In this document: positions 6,124 through 50,330 of the stretch, in pieces | Position numbering within the stretch: position 1 is the stretch's first letter | Layout: each line of letters starts with the position of its first letter | From: Roseitranquillus sediminis | GTDB taxonomy: Bacteria; Pseudomonadota; Alphaproteobacteria; Rhodobacterales; Rhodobacteraceae | Length of the DNA: 64,000 nucleotides | Assembly (NCBI RefSeq): GCF_016918935.1 | Contig: NZ_JAFFOB010000015.1 | Span: forward strand, 310,001-374,000 | Direction: 5' to 3' | Made by a program: the position numbers and the translations under genes | Notes under the pieces: generated by a model | What the model was told of the DNA's origin: nothing | What the model saw: only the letters and a program-made list of their open reading frames with translations | Databases searched by the model: none

Positions 6124-7100
6124 CCAAACTCGACCCGGCGCTGATCCCGTTCCTGATAGCGGGGCTGGTCGTGGTGGCCGTTTCCGCCGCGATCTGGTCG
6201 ATCTTCTCCGGGCATGCAGCAGAGCGGGAGCGGCGCTATCGCCGGCTCCAGTGCCATGCGCCTTCCGTCAGCATCGACAGGCGGCGCGTCGGCAATGCTG
6301 AGGACGAGGTGCTGCGCAACGCAAGTGCGATGGTGCGTCGGCGCCGGACTGGCAAGGGACTTTCGTTCCGCTTCGCCCTCCAGCAAGCGGGTCTGCTCTG
6401 GCCGGTCTGGATGGTCCCGGTGGTCGTGGCCATACTCGCGTTGTCTCTCGGCAGCGGCGCTCGTCTTGCAGGCCTTTCCCAGATTGCCGCGGGCCTGTTC
6501 GGCCTGGCAACCGGACCGGGCCTGTTCCTCATCTTCCTGCGCGTCCGTCGCGCGCGGCGGAAAAAGGCGATGGAGAAGGACTTCCCGAACGCGCTCGACA
6601 TCATCGTCCGCGGTGTGAAGTCGGGACTGCCGCTCAACGATTGCTTGCGGATCGTCTCGCGCGAGGTCCCCGACCCGCTCGGTTCGGAATTCGCACGCAT
6701 GGTGGAGCAGCAAGGCCACGGCGTGCCGATCGCCGAGGCGGTCGACCGGCTCGCGGACCGCGTCCCGCTCACGGAGGCGAACTTCTTCGCGATCGTCATC
6801 GGGCTGCAGACCAAGACCGGCGGACGGCTCGCGGAATCGCTCGACAACCTCGTCTCGGTACTAAGGGCCCGGGTGCAGTTGCGTGCCAAGATCGGCTCGA
6901 TGAGCTCCGAGGCAAAGGCCTCTGGCGCGATCATCGCCGCGCTGCCGGTCGTCGTCGCGACGCTCGTCTACATCACGAGCCCTGCCTATATCTCGCTGCT
7001 TTTCACCGAAGCCATCGGCAACGTGGTCCTGGTCGCGTCGGCGATCTGGATGCTGATCGGCGTCTTCGTGATGCGCAAGATGATCGCGTTCGACTACTGA
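6120..7100 (+). CDS. tadB: Tad pilus inner-membrane protein TadB
   Basis: A 326-residue GspF-type membrane protein that forms the Tad platform with TadC and couples to the CpaF ATPase. It has an N-terminal membrane segment (IPFLIAGLVVVAVSAAIWSI), a second hydrophobic pair around residues 90-140, then the cytoplasmic T2SSF domain. That domain has KDFPNALDIIVRGVKSGLPL and TGGRLAESLDNL, and a C-terminal pair of membrane helices follows. A GTG start overlaps the cpaF stop. Length and layout are typical of the family. Confidence 0.92.
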   Translation: MTKLDPALIPFLIAGLVVVAVSAAIWSIFSGHAAERERRYRRLQCHAPSVSIDRRRVGNAEDEVLRNASAMVRRRRTGKGLSFRFALQQAGLLWPVWMVPVVVAILALSLGSGARLAGLSQIAAGLFGLATGPGLFLIFLRVRRARRKKAMEKDFPNALDIIVRGVKSGLPLNDCLRIVSREVPDPLGSEFARMVEQQGHGVPIAEAVDRLADRVPLTEANFFAIVIGLQTKTGGRLAESLDNLVSVLRARVQLRAKIGSMSSEAKASGAIIAALPVVVATLVYITSPAYISLLFTEAIGNVVLVASAIWMLIGVFVMRKMIAFDY

Positions 7101-7110
7101 GGGGCGGCCG

Positions 7111-8091
7111 ATGGATCTTCTGGATATCGTCTACGGGGTTCTCGACAATCCTGCTCGGCTCGCGCCGCTGATCGCAGCGGTTTCCGCGATATCGACCGTG
7201 ACGGCTCTGTCCTGGCCGCTCCTCGAGCGGCAGCAGCAGCGGCAACGCATGGCGCGTGCGGCGGGCGCGGAACGGCACATGCGCGACATGGCGGCCAAGG
7301 CTCGCGCCACGAGCGGCGATGCGGTGATCAACCTGCGTCACGCCGCGCCGAGGCGGCTCTACACCACCATCGTCAAGCGTCTCAATCTCGGCCGGCTGAT
7401 CCAGAACCCGCAGACGCAGAGGCTGATACACCAGGCCGGGTATCGCGGTCCAGCAGCCGCGATCAAGGTGACGGCGATGCGGGTCATCCTGGCCCTCGGC
7501 TTCGGTGCGGCCGCGGCGTTCTACTCGGCGCTCATTCTCGACATCAGTGTCGTACTGCGGGCCCTGATCGCCGCGGTCGCAGCCTTCGCCGGGTGGTACG
7601 GGCCGATCGTCCTGCTCAAGAACCGGCTGCAGAAACGGCAGACCGAGGTCAGGCGCAACTGGCCGGACGCGATGGACCTGCTGTTGATCTGCGTCGAGTC
7701 GGGCATGACGATCGAAGCCGGATTCCGCAGGGTCGCCGAGGAGATCGCGGTCCAGAGCCTGGTCTTGAGCGAGGAGCTCTCGCTCACCACCGCCGAGCTC
7801 TCCTACCTGCCCGATCGGCAGCAGGCTTATCGTCGGCTCGCCACGCGGGTCGATGTCGAGGAGGTCCGCTCGGTCGTCACCAGCCTGATCCAGTCAGAGA
7901 AGTATGGAACGCCTGTCGGCCAGGCTCTGCGCGTGCTGTCGAAGGAGAGCCGGTCGCTTCGCATGGCGGCGGCCGAGAAGAAGGCCGCTGCTCTGCCGCC
8001 CAAGCTGACGGTACCGATGATCCTGTTCTTCCTGCCCGTTCTATTCGCGGTGATCATGACGCCGGCAATCATCCAGATCATGCAGGATTGA
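7111..8091 (+). CDS. tadC: Tad pilus inner-membrane protein TadC
   Basis: A 326-residue GspF-type protein and partner of TadB in the pilus platform. It has an N-terminal membrane segment, a basic cytoplasmic region, two hydrophobic helices near residues 115-165, and the T2SSF domain with NWPDAMDLLLICVESGMTIE and SEKYGTPVGQALRVLSKE. It ends in the hydrophobic segment MILFFLPVLFAVIMTPAII. It starts 10 bases after tadB and ends 2 bases before the TadG-like gene, so it lies in the same operon. Confidence 0.92.
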   Translation: MDLLDIVYGVLDNPARLAPLIAAVSAISTVTALSWPLLERQQQRQRMARAAGAERHMRDMAAKARATSGDAVINLRHAAPRRLYTTIVKRLNLGRLIQNPQTQRLIHQAGYRGPAAAIKVTAMRVILALGFGAAAAFYSALILDISVVLRALIAAVAAFAGWYGPIVLLKNRLQKRQTEVRRNWPDAMDLLLICVESGMTIEAGFRRVAEEIAVQSLVLSEELSLTTAELSYLPDRQQAYRRLATRVDVEEVRSVVTSLIQSEKYGTPVGQALRVLSKESRSLRMAAAEKKAAALPPKLTVPMILFFLPVLFAVIMTPAIIQIMQD

Positions 8092-8093
8092 CG

Positions 8094-9386
8094 ATGGTGG
8101 CCCGCGCAATCTTCAAGTTCCGGCGGACATTGCATCGTTTCACAGGCGATACGAACGGCGCTATCGCGGTAATGGCGGCCATCGCGTTCCCCGTGCTGGT
8201 GGGCGGCATGGCCCTCGGTGCCGAGGCCGGCTACTGGTATCTGAGCCACCGCAAGCTGCAGCAGGCGAGCGACCTCGCTGCCTACGCTGCCGCCGTGCAG
8301 TTGCGGTCGGGCCGCGGCAATGCCGAGATGGTGGCCGCCGCCGGCAAGATCGCCGAGGCGAGCGACTTCCGCACCGGCGACGACACGCTCGCCCTGGCGC
8401 ATCCGCCGGCCACCGGCAGCCGCGCCGGCAGCGCGAAGGCCGTGGAGGTCGTCGTGAAGCGGCAGCAGACGCGCTTTTTCACCCTGATCTACACGACCGA
8501 GCCTGTGGAGATTTCGGCTCGGGCCGTGGCGGAAGTTCGCGGTGGCGGGAACGCCTGCCTGCTCACCCTCGACCCGACCGTCGGTGGGGCGATCACGGTG
8601 GGCGGTTCGTCGGAGGTCATATTCGACGGCTGCGACGTAGCAACAAATTCAAATGCTTACGATGCGTTCCTGATGCAAGGCGGCAAGGTCGAACTGACAG
8701 CGGGATGTGTCCACAGCGTCGGCGGAGTAAGCGCGACGAGCGGTCTCAACCTGACGGCCTGCACCTCGCCCCACACGCAGTCGCCGGCGATCAGGGACCC
8801 CTATGCCGATCTCGCGGAGCCGATGAACATCGGCACGTGCTCGGACAGCAGCGTCGGTAGCAACAACAAGACGATTACCGTCACTCCGCATGAGACGCAT
8901 CCGCTCGGCATGCCGCTGCGCCGATACTGCGGCGGCCTGGAGCTCAAGGGCGACGTCACGTTCTCTCCCGGTCTTTACATCGTCGATGGCGGTACCTTTC
9001 GGATCAATGCCTCGGCTTACGTCACGGGCAGCGGTGTCACCTTCTTCCTGACCAACGGCGCCGAAATGGCCTTCAACGGCAGCGCGACGCTCGACCTGTC
9101 GGCGCCGACCTCGGGACCTTTCTCCGGGATCCTGTTCTACAGCGATCGCGACGATGTCGGCCTCTCGCATAGTATCAACGGTAACGCAGGGTCGACCCTC
9201 AATGGCGCCGTTTACCTCTCCTCAAGCGACCTCAGCTACAGCGGAAACTTCAGCGGGACCTACGGGTGCACGCAGATCGTCACGCGGCGCGTCACCTTCA
9301 CGGGCAATTCGTCGCTCAATGTCGATTGCTCGGCAGCAGGCACCCGGCGAATCCCGGTGGGCGAGATCATCGCTCTGGTGGAATAG
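8094..9386 (+). CDS. TadG-like pilus assembly protein
   Basis: A 430-residue protein with a cytoplasmic N-terminus followed by one membrane helix, GAIAVMAAIAFPVLVGGMALG, the Tad/TadG N-terminal signature, and the YWYLSHRKLQQASDLAAYAA segment that follows it. Instead of a von Willebrand A domain, the extracytoplasmic part (about residues 150-420) is Gly/Ser/Thr-rich and repetitive: GGAITVGGSSEVIFDGC, LELKGDVTFSPGLYIVDGG. This looks like a beta-solenoid of the kind found in pilus-associated adhesin-like proteins. The start at ATG 8094 follows tadC directly; the upstream open frame overlaps tadC. Its role is probably a minor pilus component or surface tip. Confidence 0.8.
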   Translation: MVARAIFKFRRTLHRFTGDTNGAIAVMAAIAFPVLVGGMALGAEAGYWYLSHRKLQQASDLAAYAAAVQLRSGRGNAEMVAAAGKIAEASDFRTGDDTLALAHPPATGSRAGSAKAVEVVVKRQQTRFFTLIYTTEPVEISARAVAEVRGGGNACLLTLDPTVGGAITVGGSSEVIFDGCDVATNSNAYDAFLMQGGKVELTAGCVHSVGGVSATSGLNLTACTSPHTQSPAIRDPYADLAEPMNIGTCSDSSVGSNNKTITVTPHETHPLGMPLRRYCGGLELKGDVTFSPGLYIVDGGTFRINASAYVTGSGVTFFLTNGAEMAFNGSATLDLSAPTSGPFSGILFYSDRDDVGLSHSINGNAGSTLNGAVYLSSSDLSYSGNFSGTYGCTQIVTRRVTFTGNSSLNVDCSAAGTRRIPVGEIIALVE

Positions 9387-42816: not shown

Positions 42817-43737
42817 TCACAGTTCGGACGCGCGCGGCGGGTTGGCTCCCTCGCGTGAGACCGTGATCGCGGCCGCGCGCACCCCGAGGTCGAGTGCATC
42901 CCGCAACGCCGCCTCGTCCAGCTGTCGTAGCGCATCGCGCCGCAGCACGCCGCCGCGCGCGAGCCCGGCCAGCAGACCCGCGTTGAAGGTATCGCCGGCA
43001 CCGACGGTATCCGCCACCGTCACGCGCGGCGCGTCGACATGAACCGCGCCGGCCGCGGTGTAGCCAGTCGCGCCCCGCGCCCCCTCGGTGATGCAGACGA
43101 GATGCGGTCCCCGCTTGAGGATGTCGCCGGCCAGCGCCACCGCGTCGCCCGGCCCCTCGAGCCAGTGCAGGTCCTCGTCGGAAAGCTTCACGATGTCTGC
43201 CAGCGCCATCATCCGCCCGATCCGGCCGCGGTACGCTGCCTCGTCGCGGATGAAGCCCGGGCGGACGTTGGGGTCGATCATCGTCACGCGGCTGGCGGCG
43301 GCCTTGGCCATCAGCGCCTCGTAGGCGGTGCCGCAGGGCTCGGCGACCAGGCTGATCCCGCCGAAGAAGAGCGCCTTGATCTCGTCGGGCAGGGCCGGGA
43401 GCTCGTCGCCCGCCAGCATCCGCCCTGCGGTGCCCTCGTCGTAGAAGACGTAGCGTGCCTGCCCCTGTGTCAGCTCGACGAAGGCCAGCGTCGTCGGCCG
43501 GTCCGAGCGGTGGGAGAGCGCGGTGTCGACGCCGCTTTCCGCCAGCGCCCGCTCCAGGCGGAGTCCGAACATGTCGGTCGAAAGGCCGGTGAAGAAGCCC
43601 GTCGCCACGTCGAGGCGCCCGAGCGCGATGGCCGTATTGAAGACTGCGCCGCCGACATGTGGCGCGTAGGCCAGCGCGCCCGCCTCGGTGCGCCGTGGCA
43701 GCATGTCGATCAGCGCCTCGCCACAGCAAAGGATCAT
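42817..43737 (-). CDS. PfkB-family carbohydrate kinase, fructokinase-like
   Basis: A 306-residue ribokinase-family enzyme. The N-terminus is [15 protein letters not shown], the GG motif is [16 protein letters not shown], and the C-terminal anion hole is [19 protein letters not shown]. It phosphorylates a sugar such as fructose; the exact substrate is not certain. It is upstream of dtd on the same strand. Confidence 0.88.
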
Positions 43738-43853
43738 CAGCCACTCCCCGTCCCGAGCTGACCCAGCGTCGGCGATCTGCCGCCGGATGCCAAGCTTTGC
43801 TCGGGGCGGCCGTGCAGACCCTCAGGCGCGCGCGGCAGGCGGGTCACACCTGC

Positions 43854-44939
43854 TCAGGACTGCAGCGCGCCGAAGTACCCCGCGACGGCGGCCAGGATCA
43901 CGGCCAGCAAAACGGCGAGCGCCACCTTCCATGGCGACCAGGGCCGCTCGCCCTGCACCCGGCCCGTCTGGCCGTTGACGACGAAGCGGTAGCTCTCGCC
44001 GCGGTACTTGTAGGCGGCGACCCAGACCGGCAGCAGGACGTGCTTGAAGGTGACGCCGTCGACCTGCGTCTGCATCTGGTGGATGCGCTGGCGGTCGCCG
44101 CCGATGTCGAAGCGGACGTCGCGCTCGATCACGCGGTCCATCCAGTCCCGCGCCTCGACGAAGGCGTCGGCCAGCTCGACCCGGTAGGCCTCGGCGCGGA
44201 ACCCGGCAATGAATTCGGGCGCATAGGGCGACAAACGCGACAGGTCCCAGGGCGGCAACGCACCGGTGTGCTTCTTGGGCAGGCTGCGCGAGGCCAGCAC
44301 CAGCACGTCGTCGAAAGTGCGCGCGACGCGGCCCGTGACGGCGCGCCAGCGCACCTTCGTCACCGGGACCGACTGCCGCTTGCCGTCCCGCACCACCGTC
44401 CGCATCTCCACGTAGGTGGTCCCGCGCTCGCCGCGATAGTGGGTCTCGGTTCGCGCGTCGAAGGTCCAGTAGGGGACGTAGACGCCGCTCATCCGCCGCC
44501 CCTTGCGCGCGTAGTCCCTCAGGCCGTTCGGCGCGAGCCAGAGGCTGCCCAGCCACTCGGTCATCGCCTGATGTGCCGCCGCCTCGTCGACCTCGAAGGG
44601 CAGCAGGCCGCCCGGCTTGATGTGGCGATGCAGCCCGGTATCGGTGACGATGGGTGTCGCGCAGAACGGGCACTCCCGCGCATGCAGCGCCTCGTCGAAC
44701 TCCACCGTTGCGCCGCAGCTCTGGCAGGTGCGCGTCCGTGTCTCCTCGATGTCGGTCTGCGGCAGGCGCGCGTCCAGCGCCGCGCGAAAATCGTGCTCGG
44801 GTAGGGGGTGCAGGTCGGCCGGCCGGTTCTCGATCTCCGCGCTGTTGCCGCAATGCGGGCACACGAGCCGCCGCGTTCTTGGCTCGAACCGCATGTCCGA
44901 GCCGCAGGTGCCGCAGGGAAACCGGTGATCCTCGGTCAC
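43854..44939 (-). CDS. Zinc-ribbon membrane protein
   Basis: A 361-residue protein. The N-terminus carries two zinc ribbons, CGTCGSDMRFEPRTRRLVC with CPHCG, and CQSCGATVEFDEALHARECP with CPFC. The middle has a conserved domain (YVPYWTFDARTETHYRGERG, WDLSRLSPYAPEFIAGFRAE) and the C-terminus one transmembrane helix (VALAVLLAVILAAVAGYFGA). Relatives are often misnamed as helicase or primosomal proteins. The start at GTG 44939 places the ribbon at residue 8. It follows the SPFH gene by 136 bases on the same strand. Confidence 0.75.
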   Translation of the reverse strand: MTEDHRFPCGTCGSDMRFEPRTRRLVCPHCGNSAEIENRPADLHPLPEHDFRAALDARLPQTDIEETRTRTCQSCGATVEFDEALHARECPFCATPIVTDTGLHRHIKPGGLLPFEVDEAAAHQAMTEWLGSLWLAPNGLRDYARKGRRMSGVYVPYWTFDARTETHYRGERGTTYVEMRTVVRDGKRQSVPVTKVRWRAVTGRVARTFDDVLVLASRSLPKKHTGALPPWDLSRLSPYAPEFIAGFRAEAYRVELADAFVEARDWMDRVIERDVRFDIGGDRQRIHQMQTQVDGVTFKHVLLPVWVAAYKYRGESYRFVVNGQTGRVQGERPWSPWKVALAVLLAVILAAVAGYFGALQS

Positions 44940-45075
44940 GTGACCGGCACCTTTGCCATGCGTTACACCTGCCACGTGGACCGCGGCGAGCCGCAAGGCT
45001 TGTCGCGCGCAGCCGACGGGGCTCGATGCCCCCGAGGCTGCGCCCCCCTTGCCGGTCCACGCTCCGCCATGCGGG

Positions 45076-46185
45076 TCAGGCCCCCGGCGGCGGTGGCGGC
45101 AGCACGGTGAAGAGCTGCGCCAGCTCGTCCACATCCTCGGCGCGCTTCCAGCCGTCCTGCCCGGCGGTCCAGACGTAGGTCTGCCGCGTCATCTCCCCCG
45201 CCGAGGCCATGCGCCCGAGATCCGCCTTGCTGTAGGGTCCGCGCGTCTCGCCACCCTCGGCCAGGTGCCACACATGCTCGACCGGGGGCGGCGGGGGCGT
45301 CGCCGCGGCAGGCGCCGCACCCCACGGCCCCTGCCGCGCCGCCTGCGCGCCCATGGCGAGTCCCATCCCGGCCCCGAGCCCCGCGCCCAGGCCTCCGCCG
45401 GCCGCGCCGGGGTTCTCCGCCGCCCGCGTCATCGCCTCGGCCGCCGAGAACTGGGTATAGCGCCCCAGATCGCCGACGAGGCCCATCGAGGTGCGCTTGT
45501 CGAGCGCCTGCTCCACCGCCGGCGGCAGCGAGACGTTCTCGATGTAGAGCTCGGGCATCGTCAGCCCGTATTCCGCCAGCGTGCCGGCCACCTCGGTCGC
45601 GACCAGCTTTCCGAGGTCGGCGGTGTTCGCCGCCATGTCCAGCACCGGGATGCCGGAGGCCGCCAGCACCCGGCTCACCTCCTGCACGATGATGTTGCGG
45701 ATCTGGAAGGTGATCTCGTCAGAGGTGAACTCGCCGTCGGTGCCGACGATCTCCTGCAGGAAGCGGCCCGGGTCGGTCACCCGGATCGCATAGGTGCCGA
45801 AGGCGCGCAGGCGGGTCGGCCCGAACTCCGGGTCGCGCAGCATCACCGGGTTCTTGGTGCCCCACTTCAGGTCGGTGAAGCGAGTCGTGGCGACGAAATA
45901 GATCTCGGACTTGAAGGGACTGCGAAAGCCGTGGTCCCAGTGCTGCAGCGTCGTCATCACCGGCATGTTGTTGGTCTCGAGCAGGTAGAGACCCGGCATG
46001 AAGACGTCGGCGAGCTGCCCCTCGTGGACGAAGACCGCCGCCTGCCCCTCGCGCACCGTCAGCTTGGCGCCATACTTGATCTCGTGGCCGTGGCGCTCGA
46101 ACCGCCAGACCATCGTGTTGCGGGTGTCGTCGGTCCAGTGGATGACGTCGATGAACTGTCCCGACAGGAAGTCCCAGATGGCCAT
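45076..46185 (-). CDS. SPFH-domain protein with C-terminal GYF-like domain
   Basis: A 369-residue protein similar to YdjI-type SPFH (virion core-like) proteins. The SPFH region is about 30-260 and includes AKLTVREGQAAVFVHEGQLA and ATEVAGTLAEYGLTMPELYI. A Gly/Ala-rich linker follows, and then a GYF_2-like domain, HVWHLAEGGETRGPYSKADL and YVWTAGQDGWKRAEDVDELA. The N-terminus lacks a clear membrane helix. It probably forms a membrane-associated ring in the neighbourhood of TelA and the zinc-ribbon protein. Confidence 0.82.
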   Translation of the reverse strand: MAIWDFLSGQFIDVIHWTDDTRNTMVWRFERHGHEIKYGAKLTVREGQAAVFVHEGQLADVFMPGLYLLETNNMPVMTTLQHWDHGFRSPFKSEIYFVATTRFTDLKWGTKNPVMLRDPEFGPTRLRAFGTYAIRVTDPGRFLQEIVGTDGEFTSDEITFQIRNIIVQEVSRVLAASGIPVLDMAANTADLGKLVATEVAGTLAEYGLTMPELYIENVSLPPAVEQALDKRTSMGLVGDLGRYTQFSAAEAMTRAAENPGAAGGGLGAGLGAGMGLAMGAQAARQGPWGAAPAAATPPPPPVEHVWHLAEGGETRGPYSKADLGRMASAGEMTRQTYVWTAGQDGWKRAEDVDELAQLFTVLPPPPPGA

Positions 46186-46196
46186 CGGCTTCTCCC

Positions 46197-47120
46197 TCAG
46201 CTGGCCGGCAGGATCTCGTAGGCGATCTCGCGCACGATCGGCAACGCCTCGTCGCCGCTCATGCCGGGACGGATGCGCGGATCGTAGAGGATCCTCAGCA
46301 GGTACTCGTCATGAGTGGTGAGCAGCCCGAACTCCTCGTCGTCGTTAAAGATCGAGGGACGCGCGAGCGGGCTGTCGTTCGACAGGCCGAGGCCCTGTGC
46401 GATCTCCTCGTGGATGCACGACAGGCGCAACAGCTCGGGATGCTCGGCCCGGATCACCGCGACCGCCTGCGTGTAGACGCCGGTGCCGACCCGGTCGAGC
46501 GCGAAGACCAGGCAGTAGTTCTGCCGCGGCAGGTCAACCACCGTCTCGACCGCGGCCTTGCTGATGCCGGGGATCATCCGAGCGAGGCGCGGCCCGATCG
46601 CGCGCCGGTCGTCTTCGGTCAGGATCAGCACGTGAAAGTTGCCGTTCGACGCGACGGTGCGGATCGGATGCCGCGACACGGCTGCAAGGCGTTCCGCATA
46701 GGCTTCGACCGCCGCACGGTCCCTCGCGGCCTTCGCGGGGTCGACGCCAGCACCGACTTCGAGCTCGATGCGCACCGGCTCGACCCACTTGTGCACCTGG
46801 CTTTCGGTCTCCAGCGCAACGATCCGGCCGCCAACGGTCGCATACTCCTCGAAGAGCGCGATCCGCTCGAAGTTGCGGACGAGATCGTCGGCGTCGAACG
46901 GCGTGTCGGGTCCGCCGCCATCGGTCCTGAGGAGGCCGCGCGCGACCAGCCCCTCCTGAACCCCGCGGTAGTAGCGGGCAAGATCGAGCGACGGGCCCGG
47001 CGGCGGCGGCGCCGGGCGGGCGCGCACGGGCCGAGGCTCCGGCGTCACGCTCGGTGGCGCCACCTCCGGCATCTCGCACGCCGCCAGCAGCAGGGCGAAA
47101 AGGAACAGGATCGGTCGCAT
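46197..47120 (-). CDS. DUF2927 lipoprotein
   Basis: A 307-residue exported protein. The signal sequence MRPILFLFALLLAACEM has the lipobox LAAC. A Pro-rich linker leads into the DUF2927 domain, with NGNFHVLILTEDDRRAIGP, CLVFALDRVGTG and the metallopeptidase-like CIHEEIAQGLGLSNDSPLAR. The HEEIAQGLG resembles an HExxH-like start followed by glycine, but a third ligand is not obvious. It lies 11 bases before the SPFH gene and 6 bases after telA. Confidence 0.82.
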   Translation of the reverse strand: MRPILFLFALLLAACEMPEVAPPSVTPEPRPVRARPAPPPPGPSLDLARYYRGVQEGLVARGLLRTDGGGPDTPFDADDLVRNFERIALFEEYATVGGRIVALETESQVHKWVEPVRIELEVGAGVDPAKAARDRAAVEAYAERLAAVSRHPIRTVASNGNFHVLILTEDDRRAIGPRLARMIPGISKAAVETVVDLPRQNYCLVFALDRVGTGVYTQAVAVIRAEHPELLRLSCIHEEIAQGLGLSNDSPLARPSIFNDDEEFGLLTTHDEYLLRILYDPRIRPGMSGDEALPIVREIAYEILPAS

Positions 47121-47126
47121 CGCGCG

Positions 47127-48311
47127 TCAGGTGACGGGTCTCGAGGCGCGGGCGGCAGCGAGGGTCGACTTCAGCTCAGTCTCCATCTGGCGCAGCTCTG
47201 CCTCGGCCGCGGAGCGGCGCGCTTTCGCCTCGTCCGCGATCTGCAGCGTCTCCTGGATCGTCCCGATCAGGTTGTCGTTCGCCGCCTTCACCGCCTCCAC
47301 GTCGAAGACGCCGCGCTCGATCTGCTGGCGGATCTCCTTGTTGGACTGGCGCAGGTTCTCGGCGTTGGCACGCAGCAGGTCATTGGTCAGGTCCGTCGCC
47401 TCGCGCACCGCGCCGGCGGCCTGGCGCGAGCGGTTGATGGTCACCGCCTGGGCCAGCTGCGTCTCCCAGAGCGGCACCGTATTGACGAGGGTCGAGTTGA
47501 TCTTGGTGACGAGGCTCTTGTCGTTCTCCTGCACCAGCCGGATCGAGGGCAGCGACTGCATCGTCACCTGCCGCGTCAGCCGCAGGTCGTGCACCCGCCG
47601 CTCGAGATCGTCGCGCGCGGCCCGCAGATCGCGCAGGCCCTGCGCCTCGATGACGTCGTCGCCCTGACCGTCCGACATCTCCCGCTCCTTGCTCGGGATC
47701 TCTTCTGCATCGAGCCGGCGCAGCTTCTCCTCGCCCGCGGCGATGTAGAGGCCAAGTTCGTTGTAGAAGTCGAGCGTCCGGTCGTAGAGCAGGTCCAGCG
47801 AATTGATGTCCTTGAGCAGCTGGTGCTCGTGGCGCAGGAGCCGGTCGGTGATGCCGTCGATCTGGCCCTGCACCTCCTCGTACTTCGCGAGGAACTTGGC
47901 CATCGGCTTGGCGCGGCCGACCAGCCGCTCCCACCACGAGCGGCGGCGGTTCGGGTCGAGCTCCTCGAGCGAGAAGCCTCGCAGCGTCGCCACGATCTCG
48001 CGCAGGCTGTCGCCCGCCGGTCCCACGTCCTTGTTGCGCACGTCGGCCAGCATCGACTGGCTGATCGACTGCAGCTCCTGCTGCGCGCGCGAGCCGAAGG
48101 CGACGATCGACCCGGTGTCGGTCATGTCGAGCTCGGCGAGCCGCATCTCGATCTCCGACCGCGTCGCGGTGGGCGCGTCGTCGAGCCTCGGCAGGTCGGG
48201 CGCCGGCGGCGCGAGCTCGTGGCCGGTCACCGCATCGACCTCGGCGCTGGTGGCGGCGGCCTGGCTGCGGGTCTTCTCCGACATCCCTCCGGTCTCCTCG
48301 TGTCGCGTCAT
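47127..48311 (-). CDS. telA: TelA/KlaA family toxic-anion resistance protein
   Basis: A 394-residue cytoplasmic coiled-coil-rich protein of the TelA/KlaA family, linked in other bacteria to tellurite and envelope stress resistance. Typical segments are GRAKPMAKFLAKYEEVQGQI, LLRHEHQLLKDINSLDLLYD and IINSTLVNTVPLWETQLAQA-like (here KINSTLVNTVPLWETQL). It overlaps the upstream xpaC stop by ATGA, so start MTRHEE at 48311 was used; a second Met (48284) is possible. Confidence 0.88.
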   Translation of the reverse strand: MTRHEETGGMSEKTRSQAAATSAEVDAVTGHELAPPAPDLPRLDDAPTATRSEIEMRLAELDMTDTGSIVAFGSRAQQELQSISQSMLADVRNKDVGPAGDSLREIVATLRGFSLEELDPNRRRSWWERLVGRAKPMAKFLAKYEEVQGQIDGITDRLLRHEHQLLKDINSLDLLYDRTLDFYNELGLYIAAGEEKLRRLDAEEIPSKEREMSDGQGDDVIEAQGLRDLRAARDDLERRVHDLRLTRQVTMQSLPSIRLVQENDKSLVTKINSTLVNTVPLWETQLAQAVTINRSRQAAGAVREATDLTNDLLRANAENLRQSNKEIRQQIERGVFDVEAVKAANDNLIGTIQETLQIADEAKARRSAAEAELRQMETELKSTLAAARASRPVT

Positions 48312-49171
48312 TCGGTCCGCACGCCTTCCCGCTCAAGCCGGTCGCGCAGGACGCCAATCTCGACGTCAAGGTCGGTCCGACTCAGCTCGATCAGACGCCG
48401 TGTCCGTCCGGCGAAGGTCTGTTCCAGATCGTCGAGCAGTGCAACGTAATCGGCACGCGCCTGTGCATCGTGACGCTGCGACCACAGGTCGGCGAAGCGC
48501 ACCGTCGCGTCGCGGGCGCCGACCAGGTACACGCTCAGATACCGCCGGACGCCGCTCAGGTCGCGCGGGTCCTCCTCGACGGTCCGAAAGAGTGTGCGCG
48601 CGGTGTCGCGGAACCGCTCGACGCGCGTCCCGAGTTGCCGGTCGCCTGTCCGCCCGATCGCCTCGCGCATCTCGCGCAGCATCCGCTCTCCTTCGTCCAC
48701 CGCCCGGGCGACGCGATCCGTTGCCGGGTCGTCGGAGGTGACGCCCTTGTCGCGCAGCGGGTCCGGCCCGAAGGCCGCGACGTGAAGTATCGCCGCGATT
48801 ACGCCATAGATGACCGAAGCCACGGCGCCCCCCTCCGGACTCCATGCCGCCAACGCCACCCCGGCGCCGGTCATGGCTGAGGCGAAGAGCTTGCGCGGGA
48901 TCGCCGGCCGCTTCGCAACCCGCCGCTCGTCATAGACCGCCTCGGCCTTCAGTCCCTCGCCGACCATCCATGCCGCGCCGAGCAGAAGCGCCAGCGCCGC
49001 GAGATCGGCCGCCAGGGTCAGTGCGCCGCCCGAGAACGCTGTCAGGAGCAGGGGGAGAGGAGCGATCCAGAGCAGGTTGCGCCGCATCGCCATGCGCTCG
49101 GGCGCGCGTCGCGCGGGCGTCGGCTGCCCCTCCGCTCCGGGGGAGTGGCGGCCACCGAACCGGCGGGCCAT
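48308..49171 (-). CDS. xpaC: XpaC-like membrane protein
   Basis: A 287-residue protein of the XpaC family, named after 5-bromo-4-chloroindolyl phosphate hydrolysis but of unknown true activity. Two N-terminal hydrophobic segments (LLWIAPLPLLLTAFSGGALT and following) and two near residues 90-130 precede a cytoplasmic helical domain with YLSVYLVGARDATVRFADLW. It pairs with TelA by an ATGA overlap, the common gene pair. Start at 49171 overlaps the preceding small membrane gene. Confidence 0.8.
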   Translation of the reverse strand: MARRFGGRHSPGAEGQPTPARRAPERMAMRRNLLWIAPLPLLLTAFSGGALTLAADLAALALLLGAAWMVGEGLKAEAVYDERRVAKRPAIPRKLFASAMTGAGVALAAWSPEGGAVASVIYGVIAAILHVAAFGPDPLRDKGVTSDDPATDRVARAVDEGERMLREMREAIGRTGDRQLGTRVERFRDTARTLFRTVEEDPRDLSGVRRYLSVYLVGARDATVRFADLWSQRHDAQARADYVALLDDLEQTFAGRTRRLIELSRTDLDVEIGVLRDRLEREGVRTE

Positions 49172-49380
49172 CAGAGGCCCCCCAGCAGGCCCACCGAAAC
49201 GCCGACGATCAGCACGAAGAGTGCGGCATAGGCCAGTTTCTGCAAGGTAGTGTTCCCGAATTCGCCGCTCTCGAACGCTGCGCCGCCCGACCGTGCTGCG
49301 GCTCGCAGGCCAAGCGCCAGCACGACCACCAATCCCGCCAGCAGGGCCAGGATTAGGACGGCAAGGACAAGTCTCTGCAT
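49171..49380 (-). CDS. Small two-helix membrane protein
   Basis: A 69-residue protein with two transmembrane helices, VLAVLILALLAGLVVVLALG and LAYAALFVLIVGVSVGLLGG, and a short polar loop between. It overlaps xpaC by ATGA and heads the - strand array with telA, DUF2927, SPFH and the zinc-ribbon gene. No family was recognised. Confidence 0.65.
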   Translation of the reverse strand: MQRLVLAVLILALLAGLVVVLALGLRAAARSGGAAFESGEFGNTTLQKLAYAALFVLIVGVSVGLLGGL

Positions 49381-49538
49381 TCCGTCCCCATGCCCCCGAA
49401 GGCTTGCCTAATTCTACGGCAGGGCAGACCTTGCCGCCAATGATCAACCGCTGGCGCGTCGACGCGTTCCGCCAATCGTCCATCACATAGGCATCGCGGC
49501 CGGTTCCCGCCACCGGATGCGCCAGGTCGCGGCCAATG

Positions 49539-50330
49539 TCAGGTGCGGTGAGAGCCCTCGGCCAGCTCGCGCACGAAGGCCAGCACGTCCGCGGGTGGGT
49601 CGCCCCGTCCGATCCGCTCGACAATGGCCGAGCCCACGACCACGCCGTCGGCCACGCCGGCAATCGCCTCGGCCGCGGCTGCCGTCTTGATGCCGAAGCC
49701 GACCGCCACCGGCAGGTCCGTCTGCGCCTTGATGCGCGCGACGTCGGGCGCGACGTCGGCGGCCTGCGCCTCGGCCGCGCCGGTGATGCCGGTGATCGAG
49801 ACGTAGTAGACGAAGCCCGACGCGTTGGTCAGCACCTTGGGGAGCCGCCTGTCGTCCGTCGTGGGTGTGGCGAGGCGGATGAAGTTCAGCCCCGCCGCCT
49901 GTGCGGGAATGCAGAGCTCGTCGTCCTCCTCCGGCGGCAGGTCCACGACGATCAGCCCGTCGATGCCGGCCTCCGTCGCCTCCTCGAGGAAGCGTGCGAC
50001 CCCACGGGAGTAGATCGGGTTGTAGTAGCCCATCAGCACGATCGGCGTCGTCGCGTCGTCCTCGCGAAAGGCGCGGACCATGTCGAGCGTGCGCGTCAGC
50101 GTCTGTCCACCCGCCAGCGCCCGCTGTCCCGCGCGCTGGATCGTGGGCCCGTCGGCCATCGGGTCGGTGAAGGGCAGGCCCAGCTCGATCACGTCGACCC
50201 CCGCCTCGGGCATGCCGCGCATCACCGCGAGCGACGTCTCGGCATCAGGGTCGCCGGCCATTATGTAAGCCACGAACGCCTTGCGCCCGTCCTCCCGCAG
50301 TCGCCGGAACGTGTCGTCGATGCGCGTCAT
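49539..50330 (-). CDS. trpA: Tryptophan synthase alpha chain
   Basis: A 263-residue TIM-barrel enzyme that cleaves indole-glycerol phosphate to indole. The catalytic Glu and Asp lie in [20 protein letters not shown], and the phosphate-binding [20 protein letters not shown] near the C-terminus is conserved. Length is normal. No trpB or trpF gene is seen near it, so it is expressed alone here or with genes outside the window. Confidence 0.96.

Follow-up and report, generated by a model that had tools for sequence, protein, structure and literature searches.

An XpaC-TelA operon joined to an SPFH-GYF and zinc-ribbon pair in Rhodobacterales: a candidate PspA-independent membrane-maintenance complex

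Introduction

TelA and XpaC family proteins are labelled 'toxic anion resistance' proteins without an agreed mechanism. A 64,000-nucleotide stretch of the 3.73-Mb genome of Roseitranquillus sediminis (contig NZ_JAFFOB010000015.1, our C7, positions 310001-374000; hereafter the window, within which all operon coordinates are counted) places them in the company of four other genes. All six lie on the minus strand, from 49380 down to 43854 in the list of open reading frames (ORFs), and encode a small transmembrane (TM) protein, XpaC, TelA, a DUF2927 lipoprotein, an SPFH protein with a C-terminal GYF domain (SPFH-GYF) and a zinc-ribbon protein (ZnR). Do these genes form a unit, and what would such a unit do? 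Our best reading is a PspA-independent complex resembling the YdjG/YdjI set of Bacillus subtilis, with TelA-XpaC as the putative effector; we infer this function from gene order, protein families and precedents.

In B. subtilis, recruitment of PspA to the membrane depends on the SPFH protein YdjI, and YdjG and YdjH serve as anchors (PMC8581546). YdjG is described as consisting of two zinc ribbons, a further domain and a TM segment (PMC11237479). The latter paper names the SPFH protein YdjL, and TelA goes unmentioned in its main text.

Results

Operon order is conserved in Rhodobacterales

The conservation of the locus was determined using the best 80 TelA loci from named genomes (67-72% identical, and so a set biased to close relatives), with flanks of up to 10 kb, shorter where a contig ends. 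XpaC adjoins TelA in 80/80 loci. The order XpaC-TelA-DUF2927-SPFH on one strand is found in all 79 loci with sequence there, the contig of the 80th stopping after TelA. The ZnR gene is present in 73/80; of the seven remaining contigs, six stop either after TelA or no more than 0.8 kb past SPFH, and the seventh (L056) has 6.5 kb of further sequence and still no ZnR. The window's immediate upstream neighbour, trpA, was found in 0/80 of the relatives' flanks. Hence, the conserved order is not mere background synteny. A homologue of the downstream neighbour, pfkB, lies in the fetched flank of 49/80 loci, in at least two of them (L046 and L075) far off and on the other strand.

Two genome samples that were not picked by TelA were also considered. 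In a phylum sample of 249 genomes, 14 of them listed from the window's family, TelA and SPFH lie on the same strand within 2.7 kb in 13/14 family genomes (the window's included), and one has neither. TelA occurs in 105/120 family genomes, with one match each. In a class sample of 142 genomes, SPFH of this family (>200 bits) is present in seven, with TelA in 7/7 and adjacent in six, and each of the nine XpaC-positive genomes has TelA within about 2 kb. The original prediction of six genes on one strand, with tight first junctions, is confirmed by ORFs, Pfam matches and coordinates (Table 1); the linkage in relatives on which it staked the operon holds both in the close relatives and in the family genomes of the phylum sample.

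Two observations were made in the course of this comparison. The locus L069 (JAFKDC010000001.1) is titled Enemella evansiae, an actinobacterium, and carries a typical Rhodobacterales operon with a TelA 70% identical to that of the window; this assembly is probably mislabelled or contaminated. In 26/80 relatives, the region upstream of XpaC contains a conserved stretch, PMSKTTFYFSVVVLFAVEIIQSGY.RKLAAER, at a distance of roughly 110-490 bp (e.g. L065:8702-8851 and L100:8739-8876); the window has trpA there instead.

Four genes make up the wider unit

The original prediction took the six genes as the unit, which was not borne out. In four other alphaproteobacterial families (L166, L167, L169 and L170), the locus consists of XpaC-TelA-SPFH-GYF-ZnR and carries no DUF2927, and within the window's own family G335 (L184) has no DUF2927 between TelA and SPFH. 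The four core loci of the other families showed no short hydrophobic tail ahead of XpaC. As these families keep only XpaC-TelA-SPFH-GYF-ZnR, the wider unit is these four genes, and DUF2927 and the putative membrane microprotein described below are Rhodobacterales additions. SPFH-ZnR pairs without TelA nearby occur on plasmids of Vibrio, Comamonas and Tsukamurella and elsewhere. On this distribution, XpaC-TelA and SPFH-ZnR are modules that can occur apart; several alphaproteobacterial families combine them in one locus, and one order has added further genes. In a 2-Mb genome from the same phylum but another class, XpaC-TelA is followed by a 283-residue GYF_2 protein with a weak SPFH match (L195 of G334, 6510-9314), possibly an independent XpaC-TelA-GYF arrangement.

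TelA stands where PspA stands in Bacillus

The core resembles pspA-ydjGHI of B. subtilis in that an SPFH protein adjoins a two-zinc-ribbon, single-TM protein, there in a membrane-integrity context; PF13421, the SPFH family concerned, has matches in B. subtilis. The likeness to the YdjG/YdjI set that the original prediction proposed is thus upheld, ZnR being similar to YdjG by architecture only. The two systems differ in that TelA and XpaC take the place of PspA and YdjH (TPM), the SPFH protein ends in GYF and polyproline instead of a zinc ribbon, and a lipoprotein and a microprotein are added. No TPM domain was detected by Pfam among the six proteins, the rest of the genome not being searched.

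It is conceivable that TelA functionally replaces PspA, acting as a coiled-coil protein that SPFH recruits and that polymerises and remodels the membrane. TelA lies beside SPFH and ZnR as PspA does in Bacillus, and its structure model is predicted to be elongated and all-helical, with two long helices spanning residues 136-213 (78 residues) and 219-331 (113 residues). PspA/IM30 (PF04012) has no match among the six operon proteins and 0 matches in the window genome (99.8% complete), with matches in 9/14 control genomes. PspA is also lacking from 86/105 TelA-positive family genomes and from 6/6 genomes of the class sample with linked TelA-SPFH; however, PspA is present in only 21/142 genomes of that sample, so that no more than about 0.9 of these six would be expected to carry it. 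Furthermore, 19/22 PspA-positive family genomes also carry TelA. We therefore reject PspA exclusion as a general rule proving that TelA replaces PspA: TelA and PspA are independent, not mutually exclusive.

Comparison of the proteins themselves does not bring them closer. The hhalign probability for TelA against PspA is 0.6%, using a shallow TelA profile (effective number of sequences, Neff, 1.6). The TelA model has a poor mean predicted local confidence (pLDDT) of 67.8, and its Foldseek and VIA-align matches (alpha-pore-forming toxins, BAR domains, chemoreceptors and designed bundles) are of a generic long-helix kind, with VIA Z up to 12.3, a value that helical proteins commonly reach. We attach no functional meaning to the resemblance to pore toxins. 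PspA or ESCRT-III chains are absent from the fold rows shown, which excludes nothing. The profile comparison is negative, though made with a shallow profile, and the fold matches are generic; they lend no support to TelA as a PspA/ESCRT-III relative. A functional replacement of PspA by TelA is unlikely.

Tellurite and nisin precedents for TelA

TelA-family genes are found in other settings. In Bacillus there is xpaC-yaaN, which we take to be a TelA/XpaC pair. The IncP kil/tel operon (KlaB/TelA), which is plasmid-borne and has other partners, encodes a TelA-family protein of about 29% identity. In Listeria monocytogenes, disruption of the TelA-like lmo1967 increased nisin susceptibility 4-fold and tellurite susceptibility 2-fold, as reported in PMC12791056 from an earlier paper. 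In lmo1966-lmo1967, too, XpaC lies beside TelA, with no SPFH, ZnR or DUF2927 partner mentioned in the available part of that source. A review (PMC6955997) cites telA of R. sphaeroides as a chromosomal tellurite-resistance determinant, and kilAtelAB of RK2 as a determinant too. Because TelA is single-copy and linked in Rhodobacterales, the R. sphaeroides determinant is probably the TelA gene of this operon.

These citations, the family name and the 2-fold tellurite effect speak for a tellurite (oxyanion) resistance operon proper, in which TelA and XpaC would limit damage and the other genes would be ancillary. Yet single-copy retention in most family genomes is unlike a niche resistance gene, and the larger effect in Listeria is that on nisin. 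Moreover, none of the six proteins matched an oxidoreductase or transporter family in Pfam. We consider a dedicated tellurite operon improbable. TerD/TerC/TerB domains of the Ter stress system were likewise not detected in the six proteins.

SPFH-GYF and the zinc-ribbon protein

GYF domains bind proline-rich peptides. In the window, the GYF domain of the SPFH protein is flanked by two polyproline tracts (Table 1). PPPP is present in 78/79 Rhodobacterales SPFH proteins, with two tracts in 75/79; in GYF-bearing SPFH relatives elsewhere, the C-terminus is either PPPP or a shorter PPP tail. PPP but no PPPP is seen in L167, L169, L174, L176 and L190, as well as in L181 and L186 (same genome) within the family. 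The tracts suggest that GYF-polyproline contacts may form between neighbouring SPFH subunits, promoting self-assembly. No PPPP is found in nine relatives with other tails, which are SHOCT-like, helix-turn-helix (HTH) or, by eye, zinc ribbon (L162, L175, L177, L178, L179, L188, L189, L191 and L192, of which L162, L175 and L177 were Pfam-scanned). The C-terminal domains of the SPFH family swap between GYF, SHOCT-like, HTH and zinc-ribbon types. The SPFH protein of L178, which belongs to this family and lies on a Gemmatirosa plasmid, has by eye a terminal CxxC pair resembling a zinc ribbon, as in the Bacillus type. The polyamine-linked cluster of Novosphingobium (L175; DUF4178/DUF350/speD) has an SPFH protein of the same Pfam family, but with a sub-cut-off SHOCT match at its C-terminus and polyamine genes instead of TelA/XpaC.

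Among 74 aligned ZnR copies, the eight cysteines are conserved in 73 or 74, with only sub-cut-off zinc-ribbon matches in Pfam. Many relatives have, by eye, a cytochrome b561-like ORF in the SPFH-ZnR interval (e.g. L043:13298-13894 and L049:13366-13932), and two of three such ORFs tested match PF01292. Band-7/SPFH proteins have been proposed to be chaperone-like assembly factors (PMC11237479), and with these ORFs in mind the locus could encode a complex that helps to assemble respiratory or other membrane proteins, in place of a stress system. The window has no such gene in the 136-nt gap between SPFH and ZnR, however, and the TelA precedents concern envelope-active agents, leaving an assembly chaperone with a rather small probability.

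DUF2927 is a predicted pseudo-metzincin lipoprotein

The lipobox cysteine of DUF2927, C15, is present in 79/80 operon copies (the window and 79 relatives), and is followed at +2 by Glu. By the E. coli +2 rule, Glu at this position directs a lipoprotein to the outer membrane. The structure model has a mean pLDDT of 88. VIA-align superposes it on matrix metalloproteinase (MMP) MMP-7 with Z 11.8 (151 residues, 2.9 A), and all 50 rows, Z 11.8 to 10.8, are MMPs or karilysin. Foldseek likewise places mostly MMPs on top, with weak matches (best E 0.02) and some unrelated chains in the top 50. The predicted fold is thus that of metzincins, with the zinc ligands H/H/H replaced by E/Q/D: in 80/80 operon copies, E238, Q242 and D249 align where the zinc histidines would stand, and the general-base glutamate, E239, is kept. 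In place of the zinc motif HExxHxxGxxH/D, the operon copies have EExxQxxGxxND throughout, with E238, E239, Q242, G245, N248 and D249 invariant, as are Cys203 and Cys235. With the three aligned histidines replaced in a metzincin fold, the operon DUF2927 is predicted to be a pseudo-metzincin, i.e. a pseudoprotease lipoprotein.

The original prediction pointed to an HEEIAQGLG motif, which is present as a string but fails as an active-site signature. Its histidine, H237, precedes the aligned site; it is kept in 79/80 operon copies, whereas most PF11150 proteins encoded elsewhere lack it. HEE was accordingly rejected as a metalloprotease site. The PF11150 alignment holds 118 matches, two of them fragments and some of them redundant. 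HExxH, with which the degenerate operon site aligns, is present in six of its ORFs, each from a different other genome (L012, L013, L015, L018, L023 and L024), in five cases as HExxHxxGxxxH and in one as HExxHxxGxxH; three of the six weakly match Peptidase_M10 and one Astacin (sub-cut-off, E 0.05-0.25). Likely active metzincin-like proteases and pseudoproteases therefore appear to be grouped together in PF11150. The six ORFs, the predicted fold and the invariance of E239 and of possible alternative ligands (E238, Q242 and D249) would be compatible with a protease, active as such or with an alternative metal, whose cleavage of an envelope substrate serves as a signal to the inner complex, but the loss of all three aligned zinc histidines in every operon copy makes this very unlikely.

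A DUF2927 paralogue is encoded in the same genome on contig C4 (L173:7491-8861), as a 456-residue ORF that shares the degenerate EExxQxxG...ND site. The 16 kb around it contain neither TelA nor SPFH of this operon.

A putative membrane microprotein precedes XpaC

The 69-residue protein of the window consists of a putative microprotein core and an extra N-terminal TM segment. We searched the relatives for hydrophobic ORF tails ending -1 to +5 nt from XpaC, with no length limit. Such a tail precedes XpaC in 79/79 testable loci; one of the 80 was excluded, as it begins too near XpaC. When only ORFs of at least 45 residues were counted by profile, the microprotein was found in 51/79, rising to 79/79 once the length limit was dropped. 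In 28/79 loci the frame is of 42 codons or fewer between stops, the shortest being 27, and the short type reads MSGTGLQKLAFxLLxxLxxYVSxxGGx. The same rule gave 0/79 before DUF2927, 0/79 before SPFH, 6/80 before TelA (frames not traced) and 19/47 before pfkB, the last being probably the TM end of the preceding ZnR. Codon-position mismatches were 0.60/0.47/0.64, a weak test with the tails taken ungapped. The case for this putative ORF is made by its position and hydrophobicity relative to the controls.

Gene layout and signals

The features of the operon are collected in Table 1. The small TM gene and XpaC share a one-base TGATG overlap, and XpaC and TelA an ATGA overlap; gaps of 6 nt (TelA-DUF2927), 11 nt (DUF2927-SPFH) and about 136 nt (SPFH-ZnR) follow. 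The ZnR gene starts at ~44939, likely with GTG. For the Pfam scan, XpaC was read from an internal start and ZnR from a slightly longer one. Bit scores were 360.3 for TelA (cut-off 30), 78.1 for XpaC (cut-off 29.8; match named Halogen_Hydrol/XpaC) and 337.6 for SPFH (PF13421). The sigma-70-like site is the only promoter-like site in 43400-49700, with 0.2 expected in shuffles. Two terminator-like sites were found in total (1.7 expected), of which one is on the coding strand, close to where the ZnR gene ends. For five of the proteins, no solved-structure relatives were found by sequence below E 0.03. An anti-phage defence system was rejected, as PADLOC models gave 0 families at E 0.01 for five of the six proteins, the small TM protein not having been submitted.

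Table 1. Features of the operon and their positions within the window.
Feature	Position	Strand	Evidence
Small two-TM protein, 69 residues	49171-49380	minus	ORF; TM segments 4-22, 49-67
Putative conserved microprotein core, C-terminal 27 residues of small TM protein	49171-49254	minus	
XpaC family (PF10112), 287 residues	48308-49171	minus	Pfam E 1e-21; TM 33-51, 53-71, 116-134, then soluble domain
TelA family (PF05816), 394 residues, no TM	47127-48311	minus	Pfam E 1e-107
DUF2927 (PF11150) lipoprotein, 307 residues	46197-47120	minus	Pfam E 2e-61; lipobox C15
Degenerate metal site of DUF2927, E238-E239-x-x-Q242-x-x-G245-x-x-N248-D249	46374-46409	minus	Alignment
SPFH (Band_7_1, PF13421) with C-terminal GYF_2, 369 residues	45076-46185	minus	Pfam E 4e-101, 4e-19
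GYF_2 domain of SPFH protein	45121-45270	minus	Pfam E 4e-19
Polyproline tail after GYF, SPFH residues 363-367	45085-45099	minus	
Second polyproline tract, before GYF, SPFH protein	45283-45297	minus	
ZnR, 361 residues: two CxxC...CxxC zinc ribbons, central domain, C-terminal TM 339-357	43854-44939	minus	
Sigma-70-like promoter match upstream of first gene	49411-49440	minus	Weak evidence

Discussion

On the YdjI precedent and the nisin and tellurite effect in Listeria, the most likely role of the operon would be that of an inner-membrane maintenance complex acting under envelope-active stress, a proposal we hold with about even confidence. It would work like PspA-YdjGHI, yet is not that system. 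SPFH-GYF subunits would assemble on the cytosolic face of the membrane, each GYF domain gripping the polyproline tracts of its neighbours, and the tail-anchored ZnR would serve as the membrane partner of SPFH, as YdjG does in Bacillus. XpaC would anchor the elongated, helical TelA at the membrane, where TelA may act on or stabilise damaged regions, leading to tolerance of membrane-active peptides and oxyanions. The DUF2927 lipoprotein, its zinc ligands lost, would bind a peptide or envelope partner without cutting it, and report or tether from the periplasmic side. An arrangement reaching from cytosol to periplasm, as originally envisaged, is thereby retained as a predicted one. A more specific model is tentative and rather doubtful at present: a PspA-independent membrane-surveillance machine with a self-assembling TelA docked by XpaC and corralled by an SPFH ring locked through GYF/polyproline contacts, with the microprotein as regulator and the pseudo-metzincin lipoprotein sensing envelope peptides by binding.

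Several observations weigh against the proposed complex. The similarity of TelA to PspA is not supported by profile or fold, and the two proteins co-occur, as described above. DUF2927 is dispensable at the locus, as seen in G335 and the four other families. The zinc-ribbon gene is less tightly coupled than the other operon genes: the SPFH-ZnR gap exceeds 250 nt in 38/73 relatives, often with other ORFs inside, and ZnR may hence be separately expressed in many species. Gaps of >250 nt between ORFs are also seen at 9 DUF2927-SPFH junctions, again often with other ORFs inside. TelA and SPFH of this family are unlinked in two alphaproteobacteria of one other family (G012 and G352; the G012 SPFH has no GYF domain and a sub-cut-off SHOCT match), and both are present and unlinked in G149, G206 and G326 from other Pseudomonadota classes. 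No stress-sigma pattern among those tried (RpoH, EcfG and RpoE/ChrR types) is enriched in the 80 upstream regions. The 'stress' of the original prediction is accordingly still something we infer. No expression or phenotype results for this operon were found in the literature searched.

In the PubMed Central (PMC) literature, which leaves most subscription papers outside, we found neither TelA, XpaC and SPFH described together nor 'toxic anion resistance' with SPFH, and an earlier description is possible; DUF2927 was likewise not found in PMC full text, with the same limit. Features that appear to be new here are the predicted DUF2927 pseudo-metzincin, the putative XpaC-linked microprotein and the two SPFH polyproline tracts. 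DUF2927 thereby gains a predicted fold, that of metzincins, and a likely mode, with its zinc ligands lost. A membrane protein of ~27 residues could easily be missed by annotation across a large bacterial order. Being fixed in one locus with an SPFH-zinc-ribbon pair links TelA and XpaC to membrane scaffolding, and offers a direct route to testing the role of TelA.

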